From assembly GCA_017542305.1 (NCBI GenBank), contig JAFXXK010000007.1, forward strand, positions 1 to 64,000: a DNA stretch of 64,000 nt. Direction: 5' to 3'. Positions 50,964-62,943 of the stretch are shown in pieces; the stretch's first letter is position 1; every line of letters starts with the position of its first letter. This DNA is from a bacterium. GTDB taxonomy: Bacteria > Cyanobacteriota > Vampirovibrionia > Gastranaerophilales > Gastranaerophilaceae. Both the position numbers and the translations under genes were made by a program. The notes under the pieces were generated by a model. It had not been told where the DNA came from, did no database searches, and was given only the letters and a program-made list of their open reading frames with translations.

Positions 50964-51313
50964 CCCCTTATTATCTAATGTATAGCAGAGACGAATAAGA
51001 TAAAAAGTAGTGATTAGCATATATATAAATTGAAAAATTTGAAAAATTTTAAATGTAGAATGTAATGTGAAGCTGAAACTGATAGAAATAAATAAAAGAT
51101 TGATTATAGAGGTTTGTTGCTAGTACAAGTGAGTCTGCACCGTTAAGCGAGCGAAGCGAGTAGGGGCTGACTCCTTATGTATGAGTGACATACATAAGTA
51201 ATTTATTACTTAATCCTATTAGTGAAGCGAAACATTTGATAACTAAATATATCTTACTTAAATTTTTTCATGCACCGAAAATAAGTATATGGTGTAGAAA
51301 AGAGGATTTTAAG
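50964..51313. other. AT-rich junction upstream of the integrase
   Basis: These 350 bases hold no supported gene. They include a less AT-rich stretch at about 51130-51180 with the words GCGAGCGAAGCGAG and GGGGCTGACTCC. The open frame of the integrase extends up to 51185, but without a ribosome binding site. This is the likely place for the left attachment site. I could not define it by repeats within the window. Confidence 0.3.
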
Positions 51314-51880
51314 ATGAAAAATTTGGTTGAACCTATTAAGGACAAAAAAGACGTAGAAGCTATTGAAAAGTATTTAGCGAAGCATAGTTTACGGAATCAG
51401 CTTATTTGGATATTTGGCATTAATACAGGGCTTAGAATCTCTGATATTCTGGGGTTGAATGTAGAAAGTGTAAAAGGAAAACAATATGTTGAAGTTGTGG
51501 AAAAGAAAACAAAGAAATTTAAAAGATTTCCATTGAATAAAAAACTGCAAAAGCTGATTAAAGAATATTTGGTAGAACGTGAGAAAAAATATTATTCAAT
51601 TACGGGCGAAGAACCTTTATTTGTGGGGAAAAAGCACAAAAGATTACACAGGTCGCAAGTGTACAGATTTATTAATGACGTATGCAAAAAATTGAATATA
51701 TCCGTTAATGTCGGCACTCACACAATGCGTAAGACTTTTGGGTATCACCACTACAAGCTAAATAATGATGTGGCACTATTGCAGAAAATATTTAATCACA
51801 GCTCACCGTCAATAACCATGCGATATATCGGAATCGCACAAGAGGAATTAGACGAGTCATATATCAATTTTGAATTGTAA
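51314..51880 (+). CDS. Minimal tyrosine recombinase
   Basis: The 188-residue protein is a catalytic-domain-only tyrosine recombinase. The Arg-Lys-His-x-x-Arg-His-Tyr set is visible: TGLRISDI (Arg I), THTMRKTFG (His-x-x-Arg), HSSPSITMRYIG (His and nucleophile Tyr). The N-terminal core-binding domain is very short, as in Xer-like integrases of small integrative elements. I chose ATG 51314, 9 bases after GAGG. It marks the left part of the mobile region and may act on the inverted repeats just downstream. Confidence 0.9.
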   Translation: MKNLVEPIKDKKDVEAIEKYLAKHSLRNQLIWIFGINTGLRISDILGLNVESVKGKQYVEVVEKKTKKFKRFPLNKKLQKLIKEYLVEREKKYYSITGEEPLFVGKKHKRLHRSQVYRFINDVCKKLNISVNVGTHTMRKTFGYHHYKLNNDVALLQKIFNHSSPSITMRYIGIAQEELDESYINFEL

Positions 51881-51890
51881 AATAGCGGAA

Positions 51891-52045
51891 ATGCACCGTA
51901 TTACAATGCAACAGTTTATTTAAACGGTTGCATATATTGTTACTGCTTGATTATAGCACAAATTATTTAAAAACATACGGTGCATAAAAGCATAAAATTG
52001 CCGATATTTGCAAATATAAAACACAGTATTTGCAACATTCGGCAA
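51891..52045. repeat. Two inverted-repeat pairs downstream of the integrase
   Basis: ATGCACCGTAT (51891-51901) and ATACGGTGCAT (51975-51985) are perfect inverted copies, 73 bases apart. Next to them TTGCCGATATTTGCAAATA (51998-52016) and TATTTGCAACATTCGGCAA (52027-52045) form a stem that matches at 16 of 19 positions with a 10-base loop. More GGTGCA/TGCACC words occur at about 52052, 52071 and 52096. This layout fits recombinase, origin or regulator binding sites. Confidence 0.6.
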
Positions 52046-52105
52046 GAATATGCACCAAAATAAATATAATGGTGCAAAACGTCAAGAAAGGTTATTGGTG
52101 CTGAA

Positions 52106-52627
52106 TTGAAAAATAAATTATTATACATGGCAGTAATACTTGCAATACCTGTTATAACATTTGCATACCCTTTTAAGTATGAAACCTGCAATTTGGGGTG
52201 GCAACACGTTCACCACGACCATAATGAAGAAAGTTATCAACAGGCATGGTGCAAAGCACATAACGGTATTATTGAATATGAAAATGAAGATTTTACCAGA
52301 GTGGATTGTTTAACCAAAACACACGCAGTAGAATTTGATTTTGCAAATAAATGGCACGAAAGCATAGGACAGGCTTTGCATTATGCCGTTATGACTGGCA
52401 AAAAGCCAATGGTAGTGTTAATTCTTGATGAACCCAAAACACAAATGGTTTATTTTAAGCGGATTCAAAAAATTGGTAAAAAATACAAATTTGATACGGA
52501 ATACGTAACAAATGATATTCTAAACTTGAATAAAGACGGTAAGTGTTTTAACCCAAAATGCAAGTGTAACAGAGATATGCACCAAAACATAATGCACCAG
52601 AATATCTATTTTGGTGAAAAATATTAA
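52106..52627 (+). CDS. Exported hypothetical protein
   Basis: The 173-residue protein has an N-terminal signal-like segment (LLYMAVILAIPVITFA, cleavage after FA at about 20) and a Cys-rich C-terminus (CFNPKCKCN). The middle reads HAVEFDFANKWHESIGQALH and then VLILDEP, a pattern with E-x-D and a later Q that loosely recalls PD-(D/E)XK nuclease folds; I would not assert catalysis. I kept the TTG start at 52106, which gives the full signal segment; ATG 52127 would lose its basic start. It lies upstream of the DUF2997 operon with its own 150-base gap. Confidence 0.65.
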   Translation: MKNKLLYMAVILAIPVITFAYPFKYETCNLGWQHVHHDHNEESYQQAWCKAHNGIIEYENEDFTRVDCLTKTHAVEFDFANKWHESIGQALHYAVMTGKKPMVVLILDEPKTQMVYFKRIQKIGKKYKFDTEYVTNDILNLNKDGKCFNPKCKCNRDMHQNIMHQNIYFGEKY

Positions 52628-52781
52628 AAATGCAGAAAATAATGACGGTTAAACCTATACAAAAACTAACTTAATACTATTTTATGCAACATATACTTTA
52701 ACAATTATTCATGCTATCATTTAGTAGTAAAAGTTATACAACAGTATAGATAGAATGGTGCAAAAACTGGGAGTATCTCAA

Positions 52782-52997
52782 ATGGCAAAACAAATTAAAA
52801 TCAGGGTATATCCTGACGGAAGAATTGAATCGGAAACAGTAGGCATAAAAGGTAAATCCTGTATGAACTACATAAAGGAAGTTGAAAACTTAACAGGTGC
52901 AAAGACTGTTAAATCCGAATTTACAAATGAATACTATGAAGCTGAAACAGTAGAAAATAATACCTATAATGAGGGGTATCAGCAGAGTGGATATTAG
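52782..52997 (+). CDS. DUF2997 family small protein
   Basis: The 71-residue protein has the DUF2997 pattern: a basic beta hairpin (IKIRVYPDGRIESETVGIKG), a Cys in GKSCMNYIKEVENLTG, and EYYEAE near the end. DUF2997 proteins occur beside DUF1257/Ycf35 genes in cyanobacteria. The conserved Cys could hold a cluster or be a modification target; that is inference. I chose ATG 52782 after GGGAG over ATG 52755. The end overlaps the radical SAM start by 11 bases, so the two are translationally coupled. Confidence 0.8.
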   Translation: MAKQIKIRVYPDGRIESETVGIKGKSCMNYIKEVENLTGAKTVKSEFTNEYYEAETVENNTYNEGYQQSGY

Positions 52998-53565
52998 GAT
53001 TAATTCATATATTCCTATAACAAATGTTGAAGGTGTTGGAACACGTTTTGCTATATGGGTTCAAGGGTGTTCTATTCATTGTAAGGGTTGTGCAAACCCT
53101 CACATGTGGGATTTTGACGGTGGTACTTCCTACAAGGTTGAAGATTTTATCAATATCATAAAATCCTATGCGAATAAAATAGAGGGCATTACTTGGCTCG
53201 GTGGTGAACCTTTAGAACAAATAGAACCTGTAACAAAGATAAGTAAGGCAGTTCAAGAACTTGGACTGTCTGTTATTGTCTTTACTGGGAATGATTACGC
53301 TGACATTAAAGACAGACAGGATTTTCGAGAACTAGCAAAATATACGGATATTTTGATTGATGGCAGGTACGAGCAGGATAAACAGGATTTTTCACGTGCT
53401 TGGGTGGGTTCAAGCAATCAGAACTATTATTTTTTTACGGACAGGTACAATGAATCCGTAATATATGAAAACAAAAACAAAATTGAAGTGCGTATATCAC
53501 CTGATAATGAGGTTGTCTTGACTGGTATGGGTGATTTTAAAGAACTGATGGAAGTAATGAGGTGA
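52987..53565 (+). CDS. Small radical SAM enzyme, NrdG/activase-like
   Basis: The 192-residue protein has the radical SAM motif C-x3-C-x2-C in GCSIHCKGCANPHMW and the GGEP-like segment TWLGGEPLEQIEP. It lacks extra cluster domains. The closest class is NrdG/PflA-type glycyl-radical activases, but no glycyl-radical enzyme is in the window. I used GTG 52987, 10 bases after GAGGGG; the ATG at 52969 overlaps that site. The gene sits between DUF2997 and the AAA+ ATPase, with overlaps on one side and a 5-base gap on the other. Confidence 0.85.
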   Translation: MDIRINSYIPITNVEGVGTRFAIWVQGCSIHCKGCANPHMWDFDGGTSYKVEDFINIIKSYANKIEGITWLGGEPLEQIEPVTKISKAVQELGLSVIVFTGNDYADIKDRQDFRELAKYTDILIDGRYEQDKQDFSRAWVGSSNQNYYFFTDRYNESVIYENKNKIEVRISPDNEVVLTGMGDFKELMEVMR

Positions 53566-53570
53566 TAATT

Positions 53571-55271
53571 ATGGCTAAAACAGGGCAATTAGAAGGTATG
53601 AGAAAAACCGAACAATATCTAACAAATTTATTTAGGGCAAGGTTTCCCTTTGTTTATATACCAACATGGGAAGAAATAAGGATTGTAGAGCTTATCGTTA
53701 AAATTGCCGAATCAAAAGAAATAAAAACACAAAGAGAAATATTTATATGGAGTTCTACTGAAGGTTTAAAAAGGCATACTGACGAAGGTCAAGAAAAAGT
53801 TAATATAAATGAAGCAAATAATCCGATTAGTGCATTATCTTATATAGAAGATTTTAATAAACCTGCAATACTTATATTAAAAGATGTTCACTGTCTTTTA
53901 GGGGCAAAAGGCGGTAGGACTGATTACGATTTTATTAGAAAAATAAGAGATGTAGCAGGGTCATTAAAAAATGCAGATTTCCCTAAAAATGTTGTTATCA
54001 TTGCCCCAATATTGCTATTGCCTGATGATTTGCAAAAAGATATAACTGTAGTCGATTTTAATTTACCTACGCTTGACGAATTAAAAAGCCTATTAAATGA
54101 AATGATTGAGTTGAACAAAGGGACAGGCATTACTATAAAACTTAATGAAAATGCAAAAGAAAAACTATGTAAAGCAGCACAAGGATTAACTTTACAAGAG
54201 GCAGAAAATGCCTTTGCACGTGCAATGGTAACAACAGGACAACTTACAGAAAATGAATTAGATATTATTTTGGAAGAAAAATGTCAGGTTATTAAAAAGA
54301 CAGGTATCCTTGAATTTGTAAATACAGACATAAATATTGATGATGTTGGCGGACTTGAAAATATGAAAAAATGGCTGACAAAACGCAATAACTCATGGTT
54401 AGGGAAAGCACAAAAAGATTACAATTTACCAGCACCTAAAGGAATATTGATAACAGGTATCGCAGGTTGTGGAAAGTCAATGACTGCAAAGGCGATGAGT
54501 GCATTATGGCAATTACCGTTGTTAAGACTTGATGTCGGTAGGATTTTTTCTGGGCTTATCGGCAGTAGTGAGGAAAATATGCGTAAAGCTGTGCAAACTG
54601 CGGAAGCCGTTGCTCCTTCAATTTTATGGATTGATGAAATAGAAAAGGGTTTTGGTGGCAATGGCGGAGAACGTGACGGCGGTACTACAACAAGAGTTTT
54701 TGGAACATTTCTTACTTGGATGCAGGAAAAAACAAAACCAGTATTTGTTATAGCAACCGCAAATAAAATTAATCAGTTACCGCCTGAAATGCTCAGGAAA
54801 GGCAGATTTGATGAAATATTCTTTGTTGATTTACCGACAGTAAATGAACGTAAAATTATTTTCAAATTGCACCTTGAAAAAAGGCTAAAAGGTAGTATAT
54901 CAAAGGAATTCAAAGTTACTGATGAACTATTAACAAAATTATCTGATGCAACTGAAGGCTTTGGCGGGTCAGAAATAGAACAAGTTGTTGTTTCAGCTTT
55001 ATTTGAAGCATTTTCTGAAAATAGAGAATTACAAGAGGAAGATTTATTTAAGATTATAAAAAATACAATACCGCTTTCAACAACGCAAGCAGAACAAATA
55101 CTTGCAATTCGTGAATGGGCAAATGAAAGAGCCGTTGCTGCAACCGCTCATGATGAACAGTACAATTATGTACCTGAAGAAACTGAAGAAATTGTTATCA
55201 AAAAAGAAAAAGCAAAGAAAAATACCGAAACCGTCAAACGTGCAAGAGGTGGCAGAACTATTGATTTTTAA
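53571..55271 (+). CDS. AAA+ ATPase, Ycf46-like
   Basis: The 566-residue protein has an N-terminal domain (about 1-240) that begins NLFRARFPFVYIPTWEEIRI and a C-terminal AAA+ module. Walker A is GIAGCGKSMTAKA (about 296-308), Walker B is SILWIDEIEKGF (about 350-361), sensor-1 is VIATANKI, and the second-region arginine lies in RKGRFDEIFF. Residues 470-540 form the lid, and the tail is basic. Both halves match Ycf46, the cyanobacterial and plastid AAA+ protein. Such ATPases usually remodel or unfold proteins. The start at ATG 53571 follows GAGGTG, and the gene is followed 30 bases later by the DUF1257 gene. Confidence 0.88.
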   Translation: MAKTGQLEGMRKTEQYLTNLFRARFPFVYIPTWEEIRIVELIVKIAESKEIKTQREIFIWSSTEGLKRHTDEGQEKVNINEANNPISALSYIEDFNKPAILILKDVHCLLGAKGGRTDYDFIRKIRDVAGSLKNADFPKNVVIIAPILLLPDDLQKDITVVDFNLPTLDELKSLLNEMIELNKGTGITIKLNENAKEKLCKAAQGLTLQEAENAFARAMVTTGQLTENELDIILEEKCQVIKKTGILEFVNTDINIDDVGGLENMKKWLTKRNNSWLGKAQKDYNLPAPKGILITGIAGCGKSMTAKAMSALWQLPLLRLDVGRIFSGLIGSSEENMRKAVQTAEAVAPSILWIDEIEKGFGGNGGERDGGTTTRVFGTFLTWMQEKTKPVFVIATANKINQLPPEMLRKGRFDEIFFVDLPTVNERKIIFKLHLEKRLKGSISKEFKVTDELLTKLSDATEGFGGSEIEQVVVSALFEAFSENRELQEEDLFKIIKNTIPLSTTQAEQILAIREWANERAVAATAHDEQYNYVPEETEEIVIKKEKAKKNTETVKRARGGRTIDF

Positions 55272-55301
55272 GGAATAAATAAAAATAAAGAGGTAATAAA
55301 T

Positions 55302-56135
55302 ATGTCAATAAAACAGGATTTAATAGATAGCGAACGTAGAGCTGCACAACAACGTGCCAGAATGGGGGCAAAGGAATATGATGAATGGGTAAAATCCCGA
55401 CAAACACAGTATTATACTTTGTTTAAATCTGAATCCGAAGTTAAAGAATTTATGCGAAAAGCGGGATATGATTATAAAAGAATTGATACTGGCAGATTCA
55501 TATACATAAAAACTCATATAGGTTCTGATGACTATGATTGTGTTTGGTGGTTATACAGAGGAAATGAAATTTTAGCTGTTATAAATAATTATGTTGATGA
55601 AAGTTATATTAAAACCTACATAGAAAAGGTTGAAAATGTAATGGGTAAAAAAGTATTCTTTTTATCAATTTCAGACAGAAATATTTATAAAAATAAACTT
55701 TCAAAACAGGTAGACACAGATACTAAACCTGTAAGGCAGTCAATAACAACAGTTGTAAAAATGCAAATAACCGAACCTGAACCTGAATATACATTCCCTA
55801 CAATTTATACTGATAAAAGTATATTAAAGCAAGCACTTAAAAATGCGGATATAACTGCAACAATGAAAGGTGATAATTTTGAATTCTTATTAGACGGGTT
55901 TGATGCAAGTATTTATAGACAGGGGGGTAGTAATTACGAATTTAAAGTAATCGGAAAATGCAATTTGAAGGCTGTCCATAAGCATTTTAGCAAAATTGAA
56001 ACCGAATATAACAAAGTTGTTCAGCACAACATTTGTGAAAATATCAAAAACAAAGTAGCCAAAAGCCCTACAATGCGATTAGAACAAGAAGAAGTATTAG
56101 AAGATAATTCAGTATTGATAACTATAAGGATATAA
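55302..56135 (+). CDS. DUF1257 (Ycf35-like) protein with N-terminal extension
   Basis: The 277-residue protein ends in a DUF1257 domain (about 170-277), with TDKSILKQALKNADITATMK, a middle with NLKAVHKHFSKIETEYNKVV, and the typical final strand RLEQEEVLEDNSVLITIRI. DUF1257/Ycf35 proteins normally have about 120 residues, so the first 160 here are extra. That extension contains a second compact segment with VWWLYRGNEILAVI and VENVMGKKVFFLSI. No signal peptide or membrane helix is present. In cyanobacteria Ycf35 sits next to DUF2997 and ferredoxin genes. The stop is 1 base before the TPR gene start. Confidence 0.82.
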   Translation: MSIKQDLIDSERRAAQQRARMGAKEYDEWVKSRQTQYYTLFKSESEVKEFMRKAGYDYKRIDTGRFIYIKTHIGSDDYDCVWWLYRGNEILAVINNYVDESYIKTYIEKVENVMGKKVFFLSISDRNIYKNKLSKQVDTDTKPVRQSITTVVKMQITEPEPEYTFPTIYTDKSILKQALKNADITATMKGDNFEFLLDGFDASIYRQGGSNYEFKVIGKCNLKAVHKHFSKIETEYNKVVQHNICENIKNKVAKSPTMRLEQEEVLEDNSVLITIRI

Positions 56136-56136
56136 A

Positions 56137-58350
56137 ATGCAACAAGATTATTTTTTGATATTTCTAATCGTGGTATATTCTTTAGTAGTACTATTGATTA
56201 TTTCTGTTCCTATTATTAAAAAATTGCGGAATTATATCAATACTAAGCGACATTCATCTTATATAGACAACTTATACAAATATGGAGATGAACTTTGCCA
56301 AAAAGGAATGTATAATCAAGCTATTGCCGAATACCAAAAAGCATATTCAGAAGATACTACTAATAAATATTATAATTATGCAATGGGAATGGCATATTAT
56401 GGTCTAAAAAATTATGATAAAGCTGCATATTTTTTATTGGAGGCGGTTGCAAATTTACCAAGTTTTTCTGAGGAAATATATCTTACAATGATTGATATAT
56501 ACGCAGAATGTAATAAACCAGAAGCCTGTGCTGAAATGTTTGACATATTAATTTCAACCTTTAAAGATGACAGTAAAAAGTATAAAAAATACCAAGAACA
56601 AAAAATTTACTACTTAGAAAATATAGATAAAATTAAAGCCAAAAACAAAATTAAAGATGCAAAAATATTATATGATAAGGCATTAGAGTCTGCAAAATGT
56701 TCAAAATTTAAGGATGCAGAGCTACAAATTTTAAAGGCATTAGAACTTGTACCTGATAATGAAGATTATAAAAACTTATTCAAAGAGGTTCGAGATTTAT
56801 ACCAAAAAGAAGTAGCTAAAGTTGATGAATTATACAAAAAAGTTGAAACTTTAAAAGAAGAAAAACAATATCAACAAGCATTGAATGAAGTCGATAAAGC
56901 TGAAGGTATTGCTAAAAAACATGGTATTGGGATATTCAAACTTAGTAAATTAAAGACTGAAATAGAAAAACAGATAGAAATACATAAAGATGCAAAAAAA
57001 TTATATGATTTGGCTGTAAAATCATTGGGTCGGAAAGATTATAATTGTGCATTAATAAACATACAAGATGCAATAGGTATCGAACCTGAAAATAGTGAAT
57101 ACAAATCTCTATTAGTAAAAATTCAACAAGAAATAAAGGATGCAAGTGTTGAAGTAAGCGAATTATTAAATGATTTTGAAGTTGCAAAAAATAATGGTGA
57201 TGTAAAAAAAGCCATGTATTTTATAAATGAGGCAATTAAGTCAGCGAGAGATAAAAAACTCGATACTTCAAAACTTACAAAGGCAAAAAATGATTATGTA
57301 AAATATACGGAAAATATTGAAAAAGCTCAAAGCAGCTATAATCGTGCTATGGCAGGGTATAAATATAAAAATTATGAAAATACAATAAAAGATTTAAAAA
57401 ATGCTGTTTCCCTAGCACCAGACAATCTTGAATACCAAAATACATTGCAAAAAATTAAAAGTGAATATGAAAAAATATGTGCAAAAGCGGATAAACATTA
57501 TCTTGAGGCAAAGGATTTTTACAAAAAAGAAGATTTAAAAAATGCAAAAAGCTCTATAAATAAAGCCCTAAAATTACTGCAAATACAGTATTATATTGAT
57601 TTAAGTAATAAAATTGAGGATAAACAACAAAAACTTATAAATGAACAAAAAGCCGAAACTTTGTATAACGAAGCACTATCGCTTTATAATTCATCAAATC
57701 ATGATTATGACAAGATATTTAACTTGCTTGACAAAGCAATAGATTTATATCCCAAGAAAGTATATAAAGATTTACGTGGCAAAATTAAACACGATAGAGA
57801 TATAATAGTTGCAGAAAAATTTTATGAAGAAGCAAAAATATGTTTTAGTAATAACGATTTTGACAAAGCACTATCTTTTGTTAAAGAATCTATTAAACTT
57901 TCACCTAGTAACAAAATTTACATAGATTTAAAGCAAAAAATTGACTGGGAACAAAAAGAGTTTCAAAAAAGGCAAGAAGCAGAAGAATGTTATAAATCAG
58001 CCATTGAATACTACAATGATGGTGATTTTTCAGAAGCTATTGAATATTTAGAGGAAGCATTGGATTTACAACCTAATAATGAAACATACCAGAACCTTTT
58101 GGATAGAGCAGAAGAAGGTAAAATTGACATAATGACATGTACTAAAAACGCATTATTAACTCTTGATTTTATAAATGAAGAACAAGCTGAAAATATCATA
58201 CAAGCAAGAAATAACGGTATTACATGGTATGATTACCAAAAATTTGCAGAGCAATTTAATATTATGCCTCACCAGTGGACAGAGGTAGAAGAAAAAATAA
58301 TTTTTCCGCTTAAACAAGCAAGCAGGTATGGCAGAAAATTGGATGCGTAA
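56137..58350 (+). CDS. Membrane-anchored TPR protein
   Basis: The 737-residue protein has one N-terminal membrane helix (about 5-28) and then many TPR-like helix pairs (YGDELCQKGMYNQAIAEYQK, YYGLKNYDKAAYFLLEAV and repeats to about residue 650). The C-terminal 75 residues (TCTKNALLTLDFINEEQAEN, then IIQARNNGITWYDYQKF) resemble a helix-hairpin-helix or ComEA-like end. The domain faces the cytoplasm if the N-terminus is outside. Such proteins act as scaffolds for protein complexes. Close spacing with the DUF1257 gene (1 base) and the nuclease (15 bases) places it in the same operon. Confidence 0.85.
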   Translation: MQQDYFLIFLIVVYSLVVLLIISVPIIKKLRNYINTKRHSSYIDNLYKYGDELCQKGMYNQAIAEYQKAYSEDTTNKYYNYAMGMAYYGLKNYDKAAYFLLEAVANLPSFSEEIYLTMIDIYAECNKPEACAEMFDILISTFKDDSKKYKKYQEQKIYYLENIDKIKAKNKIKDAKILYDKALESAKCSKFKDAELQILKALELVPDNEDYKNLFKEVRDLYQKEVAKVDELYKKVETLKEEKQYQQALNEVDKAEGIAKKHGIGIFKLSKLKTEIEKQIEIHKDAKKLYDLAVKSLGRKDYNCALINIQDAIGIEPENSEYKSLLVKIQQEIKDASVEVSELLNDFEVAKNNGDVKKAMYFINEAIKSARDKKLDTSKLTKAKNDYVKYTENIEKAQSSYNRAMAGYKYKNYENTIKDLKNAVSLAPDNLEYQNTLQKIKSEYEKICAKADKHYLEAKDFYKKEDLKNAKSSINKALKLLQIQYYIDLSNKIEDKQQKLINEQKAETLYNEALSLYNSSNHDYDKIFNLLDKAIDLYPKKVYKDLRGKIKHDRDIIVAEKFYEEAKICFSNNDFDKALSFVKESIKLSPSNKIYIDLKQKIDWEQKEFQKRQEAEECYKSAIEYYNDGDFSEAIEYLEEALDLQPNNETYQNLLDRAEEGKIDIMTCTKNALLTLDFINEEQAENIIQARNNGITWYDYQKFAEQFNIMPHQWTEVEEKIIFPLKQASRYGRKLDA

Positions 58351-58365
58351 ATGTAAGGGGTAACT

Positions 58366-59127
58366 ATGACTAGAAAAAGTGATTACAGAAGTTTTTATGA
58401 ATTGATTATTTTACTTATAACGATTATCGGTATCGGGATAAAATTTTTGATAGAAGTCAATAAACGTGGATTATGGAAAGAGTGTATCTTATCAGTTGGC
58501 GGGGTAGCTTTGTTAAACTATGTTTTATATCAACTATGGATGCAGAATACTTTGCCATTTAAGGTTTTTGGGTGGACTTGTTTTATATCATTCGTGGCTT
58601 TTTGCATTTATTGGGGTAAATTATTTGACAGTTCACCTTATGGACAATTTTCAAAAAGCAGCTTGAAACAAAATTCTGCAAGTTGGTCTGAGCAGGCATG
58701 GTGGTGGAGTTTAGACGGTTGGCAGTTTGAGCAGGAGGTCGCAAAATTATTTATTCTGCAAGGATACAGGGCAACTGTTACTAAAGGTAGTGGTGATGGC
58801 GGAGTTGATATTATTCTCAAAAAAGACGGATATACTGCAATAGTTCAATGCAAACATCATCAAAATCCTGTACCACCTGAACCTATAAGAGCATTATGGG
58901 GCTGCAAAGATGATTTTGGTGCAGATGAAGTAATTTTGGTTGCATCATCGGGTATAACTCAAGCAGGAGCAGATTTTATCGGTAACAAACCTAATTTTAA
59001 AGTCTTAAACCTTGATGATATTATCCGCATGAGCCAAATGCCAGAAAAGATTGTTGAAACAAAACCTATAAAAACAAAATCACATACAGCAAATAAAGGT
59101 TCAATAGGGCGAAAGATAGATATATAG
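58366..59127 (+). CDS. Membrane-anchored Mrr-like restriction endonuclease
   Basis: The 253-residue protein has two N-terminal membrane helices (about 13-30 and 38-58, then a third short hydrophobic stretch near 68-82) and a cytoplasmic Mrr_cat nuclease domain. The PD-(D/E)XK set is visible: Glu in FEQEVAKLF, Asp in GSGDGGVDIILK (about 140-151) and Q-x-K in AIVQCKHHQN (about 159-168). Mrr-type enzymes cut modified or foreign DNA. Two helices tethering it to the membrane are unusual. It is the last gene of the DUF2997-to-nuclease operon and ends 35 bases before a hairpin terminator. Confidence 0.88.
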   Translation: MTRKSDYRSFYELIILLITIIGIGIKFLIEVNKRGLWKECILSVGGVALLNYVLYQLWMQNTLPFKVFGWTCFISFVAFCIYWGKLFDSSPYGQFSKSSLKQNSASWSEQAWWWSLDGWQFEQEVAKLFILQGYRATVTKGSGDGGVDIILKKDGYTAIVQCKHHQNPVPPEPIRALWGCKDDFGADEVILVASSGITQAGADFIGNKPNFKVLNLDDIIRMSQMPEKIVETKPIKTKSHTANKGSIGRKIDI

Positions 59128-59161
59128 TGTATTATAAAGATTTTGATAGGTCTATTGTCAA

Positions 59162-59191
59162 AGTCCATAAAAAGTACACTTTTTGTGGACT
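59162..59191. terminator. Bidirectional hairpin terminator
   Basis: AGTCCATAAAAAGT (59162-59175) and ACTTTTTGTGGACT (59178-59191) form a stem of 13 standard pairs plus one wobble with a 2-base spacer. It separates the plus-strand nuclease operon from the minus-strand recombinase gene. The centre forms a very tight loop, so it may be cruciform DNA as well as a terminator. Confidence 0.75.
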
Positions 59192-59259
59192 GTTACCGTA
59201 TTCAAAAAATCAAACTTTTTAAGCGTTGATTTTTCAGAATTTTAGTACATGAAAAGCAC

Positions 59260-59853
59260 TTAACTTTTTATAGACTGTGCGTATTTGTAAAATGTGCTTT
59301 TTGCAATATTACACATAGACATTACATCTTTAACTTTAATAAAACCTTGTTTGTAAAGTTCATAGCACCTAATAAAATCTTTTGGAATTTCTGCTAAGGG
59401 TCTGCCAAATTTGACCCCTCTGCATTTTGCACTGGCAATTCCTTCTGCTTGTCTTGTTTTGATATTATCTCTTTCACGTTCTGCAACATATCCAAGTAAT
59501 TTAAGGATAATATCCGTTATAAGCCGACCTGTTAAGCCATTTTGATTATCACGTGTATTAAGTATTGGCATATCCAAAACTTGAATATCCACACCAAGAT
59601 TTATTATGCTTTCCCATTCCTTACAAATTTGTGTGTAATTCCTGCCAAACCTGTCAATGCTTTTAACGATAACAAGGTCGCCTGCCCTTAATTGTGATTT
59701 CATCTGCTGATATTTTTCTCTGCCGACAAAATTTTTTCCACTTGCTTTTTCTATAATTATTTCATCAACATTCAGCCCCACAATAGAATCAAGTTGTCTG
59801 TTTTCATTTTGTTCACGTGTTGAAACACGTATATATGCAAATGTTTTACCCAT
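59260..59853 (-). CDS. Small serine recombinase (resolvase/invertase family)
   Basis: The 197-residue recombinase has the catalytic Ser in YIRVSTREQNENRQL (Ser 11), SIDRFGRNYTQI (about 65-76) and a C-terminal helix-turn-helix (VKDVMSMCNIAKSTFYKYAQ). Length and domain order match Hin/Tn3-resolvase-type enzymes, which invert or resolve DNA at short sites. No transposase is adjacent, so it may resolve dimers of the element or flip a nearby segment. Its C-terminus faces the nuclease operon. No inverted recombination sites were found around it by eye. Confidence 0.92.
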   Translation of the reverse strand: MGKTFAYIRVSTREQNENRQLDSIVGLNVDEIIIEKASGKNFVGREKYQQMKSQLRAGDLVIVKSIDRFGRNYTQICKEWESIINLGVDIQVLDMPILNTRDNQNGLTGRLITDIILKLLGYVAERERDNIKTRQAEGIASAKCRGVKFGRPLAEIPKDFIRCYELYKQGFIKVKDVMSMCNIAKSTFYKYAQSIKS

Positions 59854-59890: not shown

Positions 59891-60178
59891 CTAAGCAATA
59901 GTGAATTTTCTGTAGTTACTTTGCTTGATAAAAGCATTGTATAATTCCAAGTACTTTTTCTTAAATGCTGATGTGTTGAAATTGTTACGAACTACATTTG
60001 TGAAGCGTACCGTAAATGAACCGATTGCCATTTCTTCAACTCCTGCATTATCCATTACAGTTTTGATAATGTTTTCTTTTTCTTCTTTGAGTTCTTTTAG
60101 TTCATTGATTTTTGCTTCTAGTGTTCTAATGTCTTTGATTTCATTTTCCAAATTTGATGTAATAATAACTGTTGTCAT
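59891..60178 (-). CDS. Phage-like small coiled-coil protein
   Basis: The 95-residue protein has a coiled-coil first half (LEAKINELKELKEEKENIIK) and a C-terminal half reading GSFTVRFTNVVRNNFNTSAF followed by YNAFIKQSNYRKFTIA. That pattern is common to small proteins of Firmicutes-type phages and integrative elements. Function is unknown. ATG 60178 follows AAGGAGG at 5 bases, a near-perfect site; the earlier TTG/ATG starts up to 60220 lack one. It is transcribed divergently from the HTH gene across a 143-base operator region. Confidence 0.8.
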   Translation of the reverse strand: MTTVIITSNLENEIKDIRTLEAKINELKELKEEKENIIKTVMDNAGVEEMAIGSFTVRFTNVVRNNFNTSAFKKKYLELYNAFIKQSNYRKFTIA

Positions 60179-60195
60179 TTTGACCTCCTTTTCTT

Positions 60196-60302
60196 GTATC
60201 ACTCTTTCATGATGTATCACTATTCCATGAATTGCAAGAGATTTTTAGGATTACGACACAAAAATTTACAAAAGAGTGATATGTTACAAAATAGTGTTAT
60301 AA
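60196..60302. promoter_or_regulatory. Repeated operator half-sites in a divergent promoter
   Basis: TATCACTCTTT (60197-60207) and TATCACTATT (60215-60224) are matched by the inverted AAAGAGTGATA (60271-60281) and the imperfect AATAGTGTTAT (about 60290-60300). A TATAAT lies at 60299-60304, just before the HTH gene. The pair of inverted sites on each side of the gap is the layout of a two-operator repressor circuit. The 89-residue HTH protein is the likely binder. Confidence 0.6.
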
Positions 60303-60321: not shown

Positions 60322-60591
60322 ATGACAGATATATATAAACCGTCAGAAGAACAAAAAGAACGCATTAGAAGGCTTGTAAAGGGGTTTTTGCAAGAGCAGA
60401 ATACATCTGTGTATAAACTTGCACAAATGTTAGAAAAAACGTATGGTCGCTCTGGTTCTGTTTCAAATTTATTAAATAAATTATCAAGAGCAACATTTAA
60501 AATATCCGAACTCATGGATATTGCGGATTTATTCGGCTATGAAATAAAATTTGTAAAAGCCTCGATAGAGGAAAATTCAAAAAAAATTTAA
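60322..60591 (+). CDS. HTH (XRE-like) regulator
   Basis: The 89-residue protein has a helix-turn-helix-like middle, TSVYKLAQMLEKTYG then SGSVSNLLNKLSRATFKISE, and a following helix (LMDIADLFGYEIKF). This resembles small XRE-like repressors of phages and plasmids. It is preceded by GAGGTG 6 bases before ATG. The gene sits next to repeated operator half-sites and is transcribed away from the phage-like small gene, so self-regulation is likely. Confidence 0.78.
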   Translation: MTDIYKPSEEQKERIRRLVKGFLQEQNTSVYKLAQMLEKTYGRSGSVSNLLNKLSRATFKISELMDIADLFGYEIKFVKASIEENSKKI

Positions 60592-60663: not shown

Positions 60664-61236
60664 TTAATTTATCCATTTTACTATTGTTTCACCATTATAG
60701 CCCTTTAACCAAACAAACCAAGCGTAAGCAACTGCACCCGAATTATAGGTTACAAAATCCCCATTTTTAGCACAATTTACACGTGAGCTGAACACATATA
60801 CTGTTTTGGGTGGATATTTTTCAAATAATTTTTTTCTGGCTTGACCTTCAAGAAATAATAACCGCAAAAACATGCAAACATATCTGCCATTATCAACCTT
60901 ATTTAATGCATGTTCTACAAATTTTTGAGCATACTTAAAAGGTGGATTTGTGACAATATCACCATTTTTGTAGGTTTCATTATTTAATAAAAAATCTTCA
61001 ACATTTCCATAACCACGATTTATAAGGTCTGTTGCTTTTCCTAACTTGCCTGCTTTTGCAAAAACTTTGGCTAAATGTCCTTCACCACAAGCACATTCCC
61101 AGATATTATTTAACTGCGGTTCAACATCTAATAATAATTTTGCTGCTATGGGGTCAGTAGCATAATAGTCGTTTTCTTCTCTTGTACCTTTAGCATGATT
61201 TGTTGCTCCAATTAGGGTAAATAAATCTTCTTTCAT
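60664..61236 (-). CDS. Phage-type DNA adenine methyltransferase
   Basis: The 190-residue protein has a SAM-binding motif I (NIWECACGEGHLAKVF, about 44-59) and the catalytic NPPF motif (IVTNPPFKYAQKF) of N6-adenine methyltransferases. It fits small Dam-like phage enzymes. The N-terminal YYATDPIAAKLLL segment is typical of that group. The target sequence is unknown. It may protect the element from host restriction or, if the Mrr-like nuclease cuts a modified site, bear on its specificity. AAGGAG precedes ATG 61236. Confidence 0.85.
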   Translation of the reverse strand: MKEDLFTLIGATNHAKGTREENDYYATDPIAAKLLLDVEPQLNNIWECACGEGHLAKVFAKAGKLGKATDLINRGYGNVEDFLLNNETYKNGDIVTNPPFKYAQKFVEHALNKVDNGRYVCMFLRLLFLEGQARKKLFEKYPPKTVYVFSSRVNCAKNGDFVTYNSGAVAYAWFVWLKGYNGETIVKWIN

Positions 61237-61569: not shown

Positions 61570-62943
61570 ATGGAAAAAATCTTAAAAGCTGAAAAGGTTT
61601 TACAAACCAAAAATAGCAGAAATGAATTCGATGTTAGTGATTTAGAGGACATAGAACCTTATAACAATTCTAAGGAAAGCTACGATTTTAATTTTGAAAG
61701 AGAAGATTTAGACAAAAAAATCCCTGAAGTAAATATTGATTCTGTACGACAGCAATCTTCTGTTATCAGTTTTGACTTTATAAAGCTGTTATTTCCGCTT
61801 ACTTATAGTAGGGAAGCTAGATTTTCAGTAAATAGACACTGTTTTTTTAGAACCAATAAACCACGCATACCTGCACGAAGCGATGAAAGTATTTTGGTAA
61901 TGTATGCCGAAGAAAAACATTACCAAAAAATGATTTTAACAGATAATGAACGGCGAAAATTAAAAACGGAAGAATACGAAAATGATTCATTAAAGCGAGC
62001 TAAATTAATATTTCCAAATGCAAAACCTTTTTATAATGACAAGAATCAACATATAGGGTTAGGTCATATGTACTTTGCTGATGGGAATTTTATTATATCA
62101 ATTAGTGGCAAAATTGTTTCTGCAAATAATTTTTTAGGGCTTTTAACCAATGATACTATTGATAGAGCTTTAAATGAAATAAAATCTACAGGTCTTGTAA
62201 AATTTGATAACAATATTTTTAAAAAATATGCAAATATTCTTTCTTCGCATGTTACTAATGATTTACTTGTACCTAGTATAAATACAAGTGTAAGAGCTTT
62301 TTCAAGCTATTTACCAATGCGAACGGACAAATACAATGTATTAAAGTATAGTAATTCTGGCTATGAAGTCATTGCTAGGGGCAGACAGTCAAAACAAGTA
62401 CCAAAATACGAATTTTGCATTTATAACAAAGGTCTAGAAATTAGAGAACATAATCAGAAAAGCTATATTAAGCGTATTGGCAGTAGTGGTATATCCCTTG
62501 CTAATAATACACTAAGAATGGAATTACGCTTACTGAATTTCCATGCAATAAGAAAATTCCTTGCACCTAATTTGAAGAAAGGAACACTAACTCTTAATGA
62601 ATTGTTGACATGTGAACAAAGACCAATTATTGAAATGCTAAATCTCTTAAACATTAAAGAAGATAGTCTAAGAGGGGCTAGAGGCAAGTATATAACAATG
62701 GTTGAAAGCGATACTTCTCCTACACAAGCTGAATTTGAGAGAATGCATGGACTGATACGCTTATTGGAACTACATGACTACAACCTTGATAGAGTACGAA
62801 GCTACACCGAAACTGAAACAGGTAGAAAAACTCATTCAACATATTTTTCGGAAAAGCGGGATATTTTACAACGGTATATCACATGCTACATGCCTCAAAC
62901 AGTAGCAACATTGACCGAATTGTTAGCAGGCATGAGTTACTAA
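61570..62943 (+). CDS. Replication-initiation-like protein (filamentous-phage II/X-like)
   Basis: The 457-residue protein resembles the gene II/X (Phage_CRI-like) replication initiators of filamentous phages and related plasmids. The visible themes are SVNRHCFFRTNKPRIPARSD, YEFCIYNKGLEIREHNQKSY and TLRMELRLLNFHAIRKFL, with Tyr residues and a later helical C-terminus. I could not place the catalytic Tyr with certainty. No membrane segment is present. It sits between the structured stretch and the large serine recombinase, so it may drive replication of the excised element. ATG 61570 follows AGAAAGGCAAGAA. Confidence 0.6.
   Translation: MEKILKAEKVLQTKNSRNEFDVSDLEDIEPYNNSKESYDFNFEREDLDKKIPEVNIDSVRQQSSVISFDFIKLLFPLTYSREARFSVNRHCFFRTNKPRIPARSDESILVMYAEEKHYQKMILTDNERRKLKTEEYENDSLKRAKLIFPNAKPFYNDKNQHIGLGHMYFADGNFIISISGKIVSANNFLGLLTNDTIDRALNEIKSTGLVKFDNNIFKKYANILSSHVTNDLLVPSINTSVRAFSSYLPMRTDKYNVLKYSNSGYEVIARGRQSKQVPKYEFCIYNKGLEIREHNQKSYIKRIGSSGISLANNTLRMELRLLNFHAIRKFLAPNLKKGTLTLNELLTCEQRPIIEMLNLLNIKEDSLRGARGKYITMVESDTSPTQAEFERMHGLIRLLELHDYNLDRVRSYTETETGRKTHSTYFSEKRDILQRYITCYMPQTVATLTELLAGMSY

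Follow-up and report, generated by a model that had tools for sequence, protein, structure and literature searches.

A six-gene operon at positions 52782–59127 of the DNA stretch analyzed here (the window, comprising 64,000 nucleotides of contig JAFXXK010000007.1) combines a Ycf46-type AAA+ ATPase, a membrane-anchored tetratricopeptide repeat (TPR) protein, and a predicted membrane-anchored Mrr-type nuclease with a DUF2997 protein, a radical SAM protein, and a DUF1257-like protein. The AAA+, TPR, and Mrr proteins end in one common C-terminal tail, and the operon occupies a slot of a mobile element that holds known defense systems in sibling elements. On a balance that tips slightly toward it, the operon would be a phase-variable, membrane-anchored AAA+/Mrr defense module in an exchangeable slot, with a complex joined by the shared tail. 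The non-photosynthetic context assumed by an earlier reading of this DNA, made from the sequence only, is right, but the source genome (1.7 Mb, 78% complete) belongs to the order Gastranaerophilales, the sister lineage of Cyanobacteria, and thus represents a relative of Cyanobacteria from the gut.

Gene set and recurrence of the operon

The six open reading frames (ORFs) all lie on the forward strand and follow each other closely, with overlaps of 29 and 4 nt at the first two junctions and gaps of 30, 1, and 15 nt at the next three. The tight run described by the sequence-only reading is thus confirmed, no junction exceeding 30 nt. Pfam backs five of the six products, the exception being the DUF1257-like protein. 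The terminator that had been placed behind the Mrr gene is rejected, as a scan for an intrinsic terminator in 59127–59260 was negative; this gap contains instead a conserved inverted repeat common to sibling elements.

The small DUF2997 protein (52782–52997, with an alternative in-frame upstream start at 52755) matches PF11211 with 55.7 bits against a cut-off of 24.1. G13, G24, and C27 are invariant in the alignment, the cysteine being part of a GxxGxxC motif. Its AlphaFold2 model (pLDDT 82) gave no credible match in the PDB, and the sequence profiles of this protein and of the DUF1257-like protein returned no solved-structure relative. The radical SAM protein (52969–53565; Pfam Fer4_12/Radical_SAM) has an intact CxxxCxxC motif and resembles NrdG and the pyruvate formate-lyase (PFL) activases, the PFL-activating enzyme being its nearest solved relative. 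It has the fold and cluster motif in common with these enzymes but scores just below the cut-off of the NCBIfam NrdG equivalog (119.6 versus 126.1 bits). No NrdD was found among the operon and slot genes, and the operon contains no glycyl-radical enzyme; NrdG function is therefore rejected.

The AAA+ protein (53562–55271; Pfam AAA) consists of a degenerate N-terminal domain and a catalytic C-terminal AAA domain with the Walker A motif GIAGCGKS and the Walker B motif ILWIDE. It belongs to the Ycf46 family, matching phrog_8638 over its full length (residues 14–537) with 477 bits, and is 44% identical to a homolog on a Geminocystis plasmid. Identities amount to 56–59% with Bacillota relatives, 43–52% with actinobacterial relatives, and 42–49% with cyanobacterial Ycf46. 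Judged by identities, a cyanobacterial origin, whether vertical or by transfer from phototrophs, is rejected, since the Bacillota proteins are closer and the actinobacterial ones at least as close.

The DUF1257-like protein (55302–56135) has no Pfam hit, and PF06868 is without a match in the whole genome. Its profile matches that of cyanobacterial Ycf35 weakly (hhalign probability 48, E 2e-4), and relatives at the same operon position on one Paenibacillus and one Bacillus plasmid carry a DUF1257 annotation. The AlphaFold2 model (mean pLDDT 84.8) contains two TBP-like helix-grip repeats and is matched by Foldseek to TBP and to the N-terminal domain of spermine synthase. Of the family labels proposed earlier, DUF2997, radical SAM, Ycf46-type AAA+, TPR, and Mrr stand, and DUF1257 is the weaker one.

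The TPR protein (56137–58350; Pfam TPRs) possesses an N-terminal hydrophobic segment and a C-terminal HHH_3 domain (a weak match, E 1.2e-4) and is referred to as TPR-HHH. Its earlier description as a membrane scaffold needs refinement, the protein being a variant of a tailed membrane protein with HHH domain that is found widely. The Mrr-type protein (58366–59127; Pfam Mrr_cat, 77.9 bits) has N-terminal membrane helices, and its motif residues FEQEVA, GDGGVDI, and QCKH are kept in an alignment of eight relatives. In all eight intact loci seen, the gene lies in an operon with AAA+ and TPR genes. It has the Mrr_cat domain and a defense association in common with Mrr-type IV restriction enzymes and the PADLOC candidate PDC-S02, but the match to known Mrr systems is at the domain level only, and the membrane helices, the C-terminal tail, and the AAA+/TPR operon partners set it apart.

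With the DUF1257-like protein as a query, 25 carriers were found among 146 Gastranaerophilales genomes. The full six-gene set, herein form A (DUF2997, radical SAM, AAA+, at least one TPR and DUF1257-like gene, and Mrr), is present in six genomes of the order: that of the window, G115, G029, G035, G034, and that of contig L089. Form B, described from fourteen fetched loci, consists of radical SAM, AAA+, DUF1257-like, and DUF2997 genes without Mrr, usually with a gene for a membrane protein with an HHH domain upstream; by search, it occurs in about 20 of the 146 genomes and is thus commoner than form A. The recurrent linkage of all six families, as expected from the sequence-only reading, is therefore borne out in part: the four-gene set without the TPR protein and Mrr is frequent, yet the six-gene linkage recurs.

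A search with Mrr as the query adds three genomes. In two of them (G110 and G133), the same element holds just AAA+, one TPR protein, and Mrr, and in the third (G139), a remnant at the end of a contig shows Mrr alone. All three genomes lack DUF2997, and none of them was listed by the DUF1257-like search. For the loci L188 and L189, searches of the whole genome gave neither a DUF1257-like nor a DUF2997 gene, and their operons contain no radical SAM gene. Being dispensable in minimal operons, radical SAM, DUF1257, and DUF2997 would hence be accessory to the mobile form.

A scan of the AAA+ alignment against a species-level genome collection gave 80 loci. Tailed AAA+ genes with radical SAM, DUF1257-like, and DUF2997 genes and a tailed partner occur in Bacillota, Actinomycetota, Armatimonadota, Bacteroidota, and others, the four named phyla containing the four-gene core with the membrane HHH protein and without the nuclease. 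Both the radical SAM gene and the tailed partner lie within 4 kb in 50 of the 61 tailed-AAA+ loci. The term cyanobacterial-type genes, as used by the sequence-only reading, is too narrow for so widespread a core. Nor is the module a cyanobacterial trait in foreign surroundings, as the AAA+ protein is closer to Bacillota than to cyanobacterial Ycf46.

The radical SAM–AAA+ pair is also seen in spirochaetes (L052:7366–9521, L143, and L168), together with DUF2997 in L143 and L168, which have several flanking gene families in common. On the Treponema plasmid L052, the neighbors of the pair are annotated as VgrG/Pvc8 and baseplate V, that is, as parts of a contractile injection system. The IMG/VR contig L230 (4096–9423) contains all genes of form B, including two for tailed membrane proteins, close to a gene whose product begins with a terminase-like GSGKT; because of this putative terminase gene, the system also appears to ride on a likely prophage.

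A common C-terminal tail

Comparison of the C termini reveals that AAA+, TPR-HHH, and Mrr end in one common tail, G/E-R-x-[ILV]-D-[FLIVW], an integrating link that the sequence-only reading had overlooked. In the window, the tails are GRTIDF in AAA+ (55251–55268), GRKLDA in TPR-HHH (58330–58347), and GRKIDI in Mrr (59107–59124). In form B, AAA+ ends mostly in GGR[ATS]LD[VF] and the membrane HHH partners in [GE]R-x-[IVL]-D-[FLI]. Position −5 is R in all 61 AAA+ and all 78 partner tails, and position −2 is D in 50 of 61 and 77 of 78, respectively. As R at −5 and D or E at −2 were imposed by the search pattern, it is the distribution of such ends that carries information. Position −6 is G in 56 of the 61 AAA+ tails and Glu in 22 of the 78 partner tails.

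Near tailed AAA+ genes, the tail is found on 68 of 620 same-strand ORFs versus none of 544 opposite-strand ORFs, and the four cases lying farther away all belong to operons; a chance origin of this distribution is excluded. A DNA-level scan of 18 genomes (12 carriers and 6 without the system) detected the exact tail codons 27 times inside operons and 4 times elsewhere in the carriers, and 3 times in the non-carriers. The tail is essentially confined to these operons. A role as a tag of cellular clients is rejected, since matches outside the operons are no more frequent in carriers than in non-carriers.

In the alignment of Mrr with eight relatives, the linker preceding the tail changes in length and sequence and the tail is kept; a variable linker with a constant tail, as read from these sequences, is the hallmark of a linear motif. 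HHH_3 lies shortly upstream of the tail in 18 of 20 tailed partners tested, and an N-terminal hydrophobic segment is present in 70 of the 78 tailed partners versus 6 of 181 AAA/radical SAM controls. Minimal AAA+–TPR–Mrr operons keep the tail without radical SAM, DUF1257, and DUF2997. Tails therefore need none of these three and look like an assembly (docking) motif rather than a radical SAM substrate. We infer a docking motif whose reader may be the AAA+ ring or else the scaffold. DUF1257 or DUF2997 as the reader is rejected, as minimal loci without both keep tails on Mrr and the scaffold; in one of them, L189, AAA+ has lost its own tail.

Proteasomal AAA+ ATPases carry HbYX tails, a short conserved C-terminal motif. 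The operon tail resembles them in being short, conserved, C-terminal on an AAA+ ring, and fit for docking in a partner, but its sequence is different, and it is carried in addition by proteins other than ATPases, among them a nuclease.

Related ends are observed in other settings. Cyanobacterial Ycf46 ends in [EY]..R[ML]EF (mostly EYQR[ML]EF), a related, shorter-spaced tail, in loci without radical SAM (L140, L144, L146, L148, L149, L152, L155, L156, L159, L160, L162, L163, L165, and L167). Most phage-borne Ycf46-type AAA+ proteins (IMG/VR, L233–L281) are tailless, and many of them terminate in acidic [DE][DE]L, which may be a docking end of another kind. In L109 (1305–6347), a tandem array of at least six genes for tailed HHH membrane proteins lies upstream of radical SAM–AAA–DUF1257–DUF2997, which suggests a diversification of the plugged partner.

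The cargo slot and its promoter switch

The constant genes of the element around the operon are those for a small tyrosine recombinase/invertase (INT), a small serine resolvase/invertase (RES), p109, an HTH protein, and a DNA methyltransferase-like protein (MT). Sibling elements were retrieved by RES and MT searches, and their cargo was typed by PADLOC and Pfam. This cargo adjoins RES and lies, in most siblings, between INT and RES. It comprises type I restriction-modification (R-M) with an OLD/Gaj-like ATPase (L224), type III R-M with HKD-SNF2 (L222), MmeI-type IIG R-M with LmuB and AbiEii (L223), Eco57I-type R-M (L218–L220), and PP2C-kinase-TPR sets (L217 and L221). L225 (4580–9891) holds another radical SAM/nuclease cargo, consisting of an untailed Mrr and a separate pVip-like radical SAM gene. 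The INT–RES interval is a defense-cargo slot in which, within the same frame of INT, RES, p109, HTH, and MT, the operon is exchanged for other cargo; it thus shares its site with known defense systems. The earlier claim of one system on a mobile element, with recurrent linkage, is upheld.

Between the window and siblings with other cargo, nucleotide homology breaks sharply at 59162–59164. The right border of the slot (59162–59276) contains an inverted repeat, AGTCCATAAAAAGT at 59162 and ACTTTTTATAGACT at 59263, which is kept beside RES in siblings. RES itself (59260–59853, reverse strand; Pfam Resolvase) is part of the constant region conserved in siblings and is followed by p109 (59891–60220, reverse), the HTH protein (60322–60591, forward), and MT (60664–61236, reverse). 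Further element genes encode a putative replication protein with weak Rep-like similarity (61570–62943, forward) and a large serine recombinase beginning at about 63171. The left border is formed by INT (51314–51880, forward; Pfam Phage_integrase, 97 bits), the tyrosine recombinase that had been correctly placed upstream of the operon. Its reading frame extends back to a GTG at 51185, the relatives beginning at the ATG at 51314, and Xer and FimB/FimE-type invertase models match below cut-off. A 26-bp imperfect palindrome, TGCACC-N14-GGTGTA (51271–51296), lies just 5′ of INT and is also present in siblings. At the left side of the stretches fetched for L222, L223, and L224, no INT was recognized; the slot is therefore bounded more uniformly on the right than on the left.

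Among the siblings with the same R-M cargo, comparison of L218 and L220 with L219 shows 176 bp between INT and the cargo to be exactly inverted at about 98% identity (L218:4180–4400, L219:7818–8040, and L220:6932–7152). The inverted segment holds a TTGACA-17-TACTAT promoter; in L219 this promoter faces the cargo, and in L218 and L220 it points the opposite way. Judged by this arrangement, the inversion is an ON/OFF switch for defense cargo in Gastranaerophilales siblings. The window contains two candidate invertible segments. S1 (51906–52076, with palindromes at 51906–51931 and 52051–52076) lies between INT and a separate small cargo gene, and S2 (about 52591–52765, with repeats at 52591–52621 and 52735–52765) lies directly 5′ of the operon. 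The small cargo gene (52106–52627, forward, TTG start) precedes the operon between the two segments and encodes a 173-aa protein with a signal-peptide-like N terminus and no PHROG match. In S2, an extended −10-like TGCTATCAT faces the operon; a consensus promoter scan of the window gave chance-level matches and supported no sigma-70 site in S2, so the window promoter is unproven. As the window palindromes resemble the sibling switch, expression of the operon is likely phase-variable by analogy.

Proposed function and rival explanations

As a defense module, the operon would work as follows. The AAA+ ring, at least one membrane-anchored TPR-HHH protein, and the membrane-anchored Mrr would join in one complex via the docking tail R-x-hydrophobic-Asp-hydrophobic-COOH. 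Through its membrane and TPR-HHH parts, this machine would be located at the inner membrane; remodeling or gating of the complex would be the task of the AAA+ protein, and Mrr would cut foreign, incoming, or aberrant DNA. Radical SAM, DUF1257, and DUF2997 would represent an ancestral accessory submodule from form B, which the mobile form can lose and which may provide an Fe-S or redox-dependent activation or sensing step. Expression would probably be switched by the invertible promoter next to the small tyrosine recombinase. Defense is the best reading because the same slot carries known defense systems in siblings; of the defense or stress-response role suggested earlier, it is thus the defense part that gains strong contextual support.

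Several points weigh against defense. Form B is located at fixed chromosomal places, which points to a housekeeping origin, and it adjoins genes reading as ATP-synthase in L045/L048. In L039 (4432–6455) and L040, the genes directly upstream of form B read as NifU and NifS, so that form B may be connected to the supply of Fe-S clusters. With its chromosomal location, its lack of a nuclease, and such neighbors at some loci, form B is the main counterweight to defense; a physiological ancestor is therefore likely, and a physiological role of the mobile form is conceivable. Moreover, the slot may have capacity for non-defense genes, S1 and S2 are candidates by their inverted repeats with the inversion seen in siblings alone, and PADLOC has no model for the gene set, its matches being at the domain level only.

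The first of these points are shared by an explanation through physiological stress or Fe-S/redox repair, wherein the core (radical SAM or ferredoxin, AAA+, DUF1257, DUF2997, and the HHH membrane protein) maintains the activity of some membrane or redox enzyme, the mobile form simply carrying this core along with the nuclease. The nuclease-free chromosomal loci and their NifU/NifS-like and ATP-synthase neighbors accord with it, as does the DUF2997–DUF1257–fed7 gene cluster reported for Synechocystis, in which mutation of fed7 confers sensitivity to oxidative, metal, and iron stress (PMC4284462). However, the mobile form occupies a defense-cargo slot and drops radical SAM, DUF1257, and DUF2997, keeping AAA+, the scaffold, and Mrr, and the explanation is considered unlikely. 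The cyanobacterial and plastid Ycf46–Ycf35–DUF2997 set (with Fed7) has the AAA+ family, the DUF2997 family, a DUF1257-like protein, and an Fe-S protein in common with the window operon. The latter differs by a radical SAM protein in place of the ferredoxin Fed7, by the additional TPR-HHH and Mrr, by a tail of the form GR-x-[IL]-D-F instead of EYQR[ML]EF, and by a weak DUF1257 similarity.

Alternatively, the nuclease and its partners could stabilize the element by addiction or exclusion of competitors, instead of protecting the host. The Mrr operon is always within the element, an Mrr-type nuclease is present, and the AAA+ protein has IetA-like similarity, a related AAA+ antitoxin being paired with a protease toxin in sgiAT of SGI1 (PMC10954446). 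Yet sibling cargo consists mostly of restriction and abortive-infection genes, not toxin-antitoxin pairs, and genes for maintenance should rather lie in the constant part than in the exchanged one, which renders element maintenance distinctly improbable. IetAS and SgiAT likewise place an AAA+ domain of the SpoVK/Ycf46/Vps4 type on mobile elements, but they contain an S8 (subtilisin-like) protease where the window operon has the Mrr nuclease and the membrane scaffold. Since the PADLOC IetA match spans the AAA domain alone and no protease was found among the operon proteins by Pfam, NCBIfam, or PADLOC, identity with IetAS is rejected. A further alternative concerns the tail itself, whose glycine or arginine might be modified by the NrdG-like protein, by radical or other chemistry, activating AAA+, the scaffold, and the nuclease. 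Glycyl-radical activases act on a glycine in the C-terminal region of their known targets, the operon radical SAM protein is nearest to these enzymes, and G predominates at −6 of the AAA+ tails. Against this stand the Glu residues at −6 of the partner tails, the tails kept in L188/L189, similar tails on some AAA+ proteins without a nearby radical SAM gene (L131 and L133), and the EYQR[ML]EF end of cyanobacterial Ycf46. Such a modification seems very doubtful, and a strictly radical SAM-dependent glycyl-radical site is rejected on account of the Glu residues and the tails in loci without radical SAM.

Next to the phase-variable defense module, a broader proposal is held tentatively, at somewhat less than even confidence: an undescribed multi-phylum AAA+/radical SAM assembly system may exist, in which unrelated proteins (the AAA+ ring, membrane HHH proteins, TPR-HHH scaffolds, and a nuclease) are plugged together by the common tail as a modular code. 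A literature search found no paper joining radical SAM, Ycf46, and HHH or describing the combination, and no PADLOC or NCBIfam model covers the whole gene set. From the loci compared, the tail-linked core appears undescribed and present in many bacterial phyla.

The function of Ycf46, Ycf35, and DUF2997 has been poorly defined for decades; even the plastids of red algae have kept Ycf46 and Ycf35. The Ycf46 family is now tied to an operon that is widespread and includes genes for a radical SAM enzyme and a tailed HHH membrane protein. The mobile version connects the family to a defense-cargo slot with a phase switch. The tail makes membership and assembly of the system directly testable, and AAA+, TPR-HHH, and Mrr represent a concrete candidate anti-phage system of a size suitable for expression. 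Should the tail act as a plug, further effectors on the same machine could be found by means of it; if the modular code holds true, addition of the tail to a new effector such as Mrr would turn an ancestral membrane machine into a defense system.

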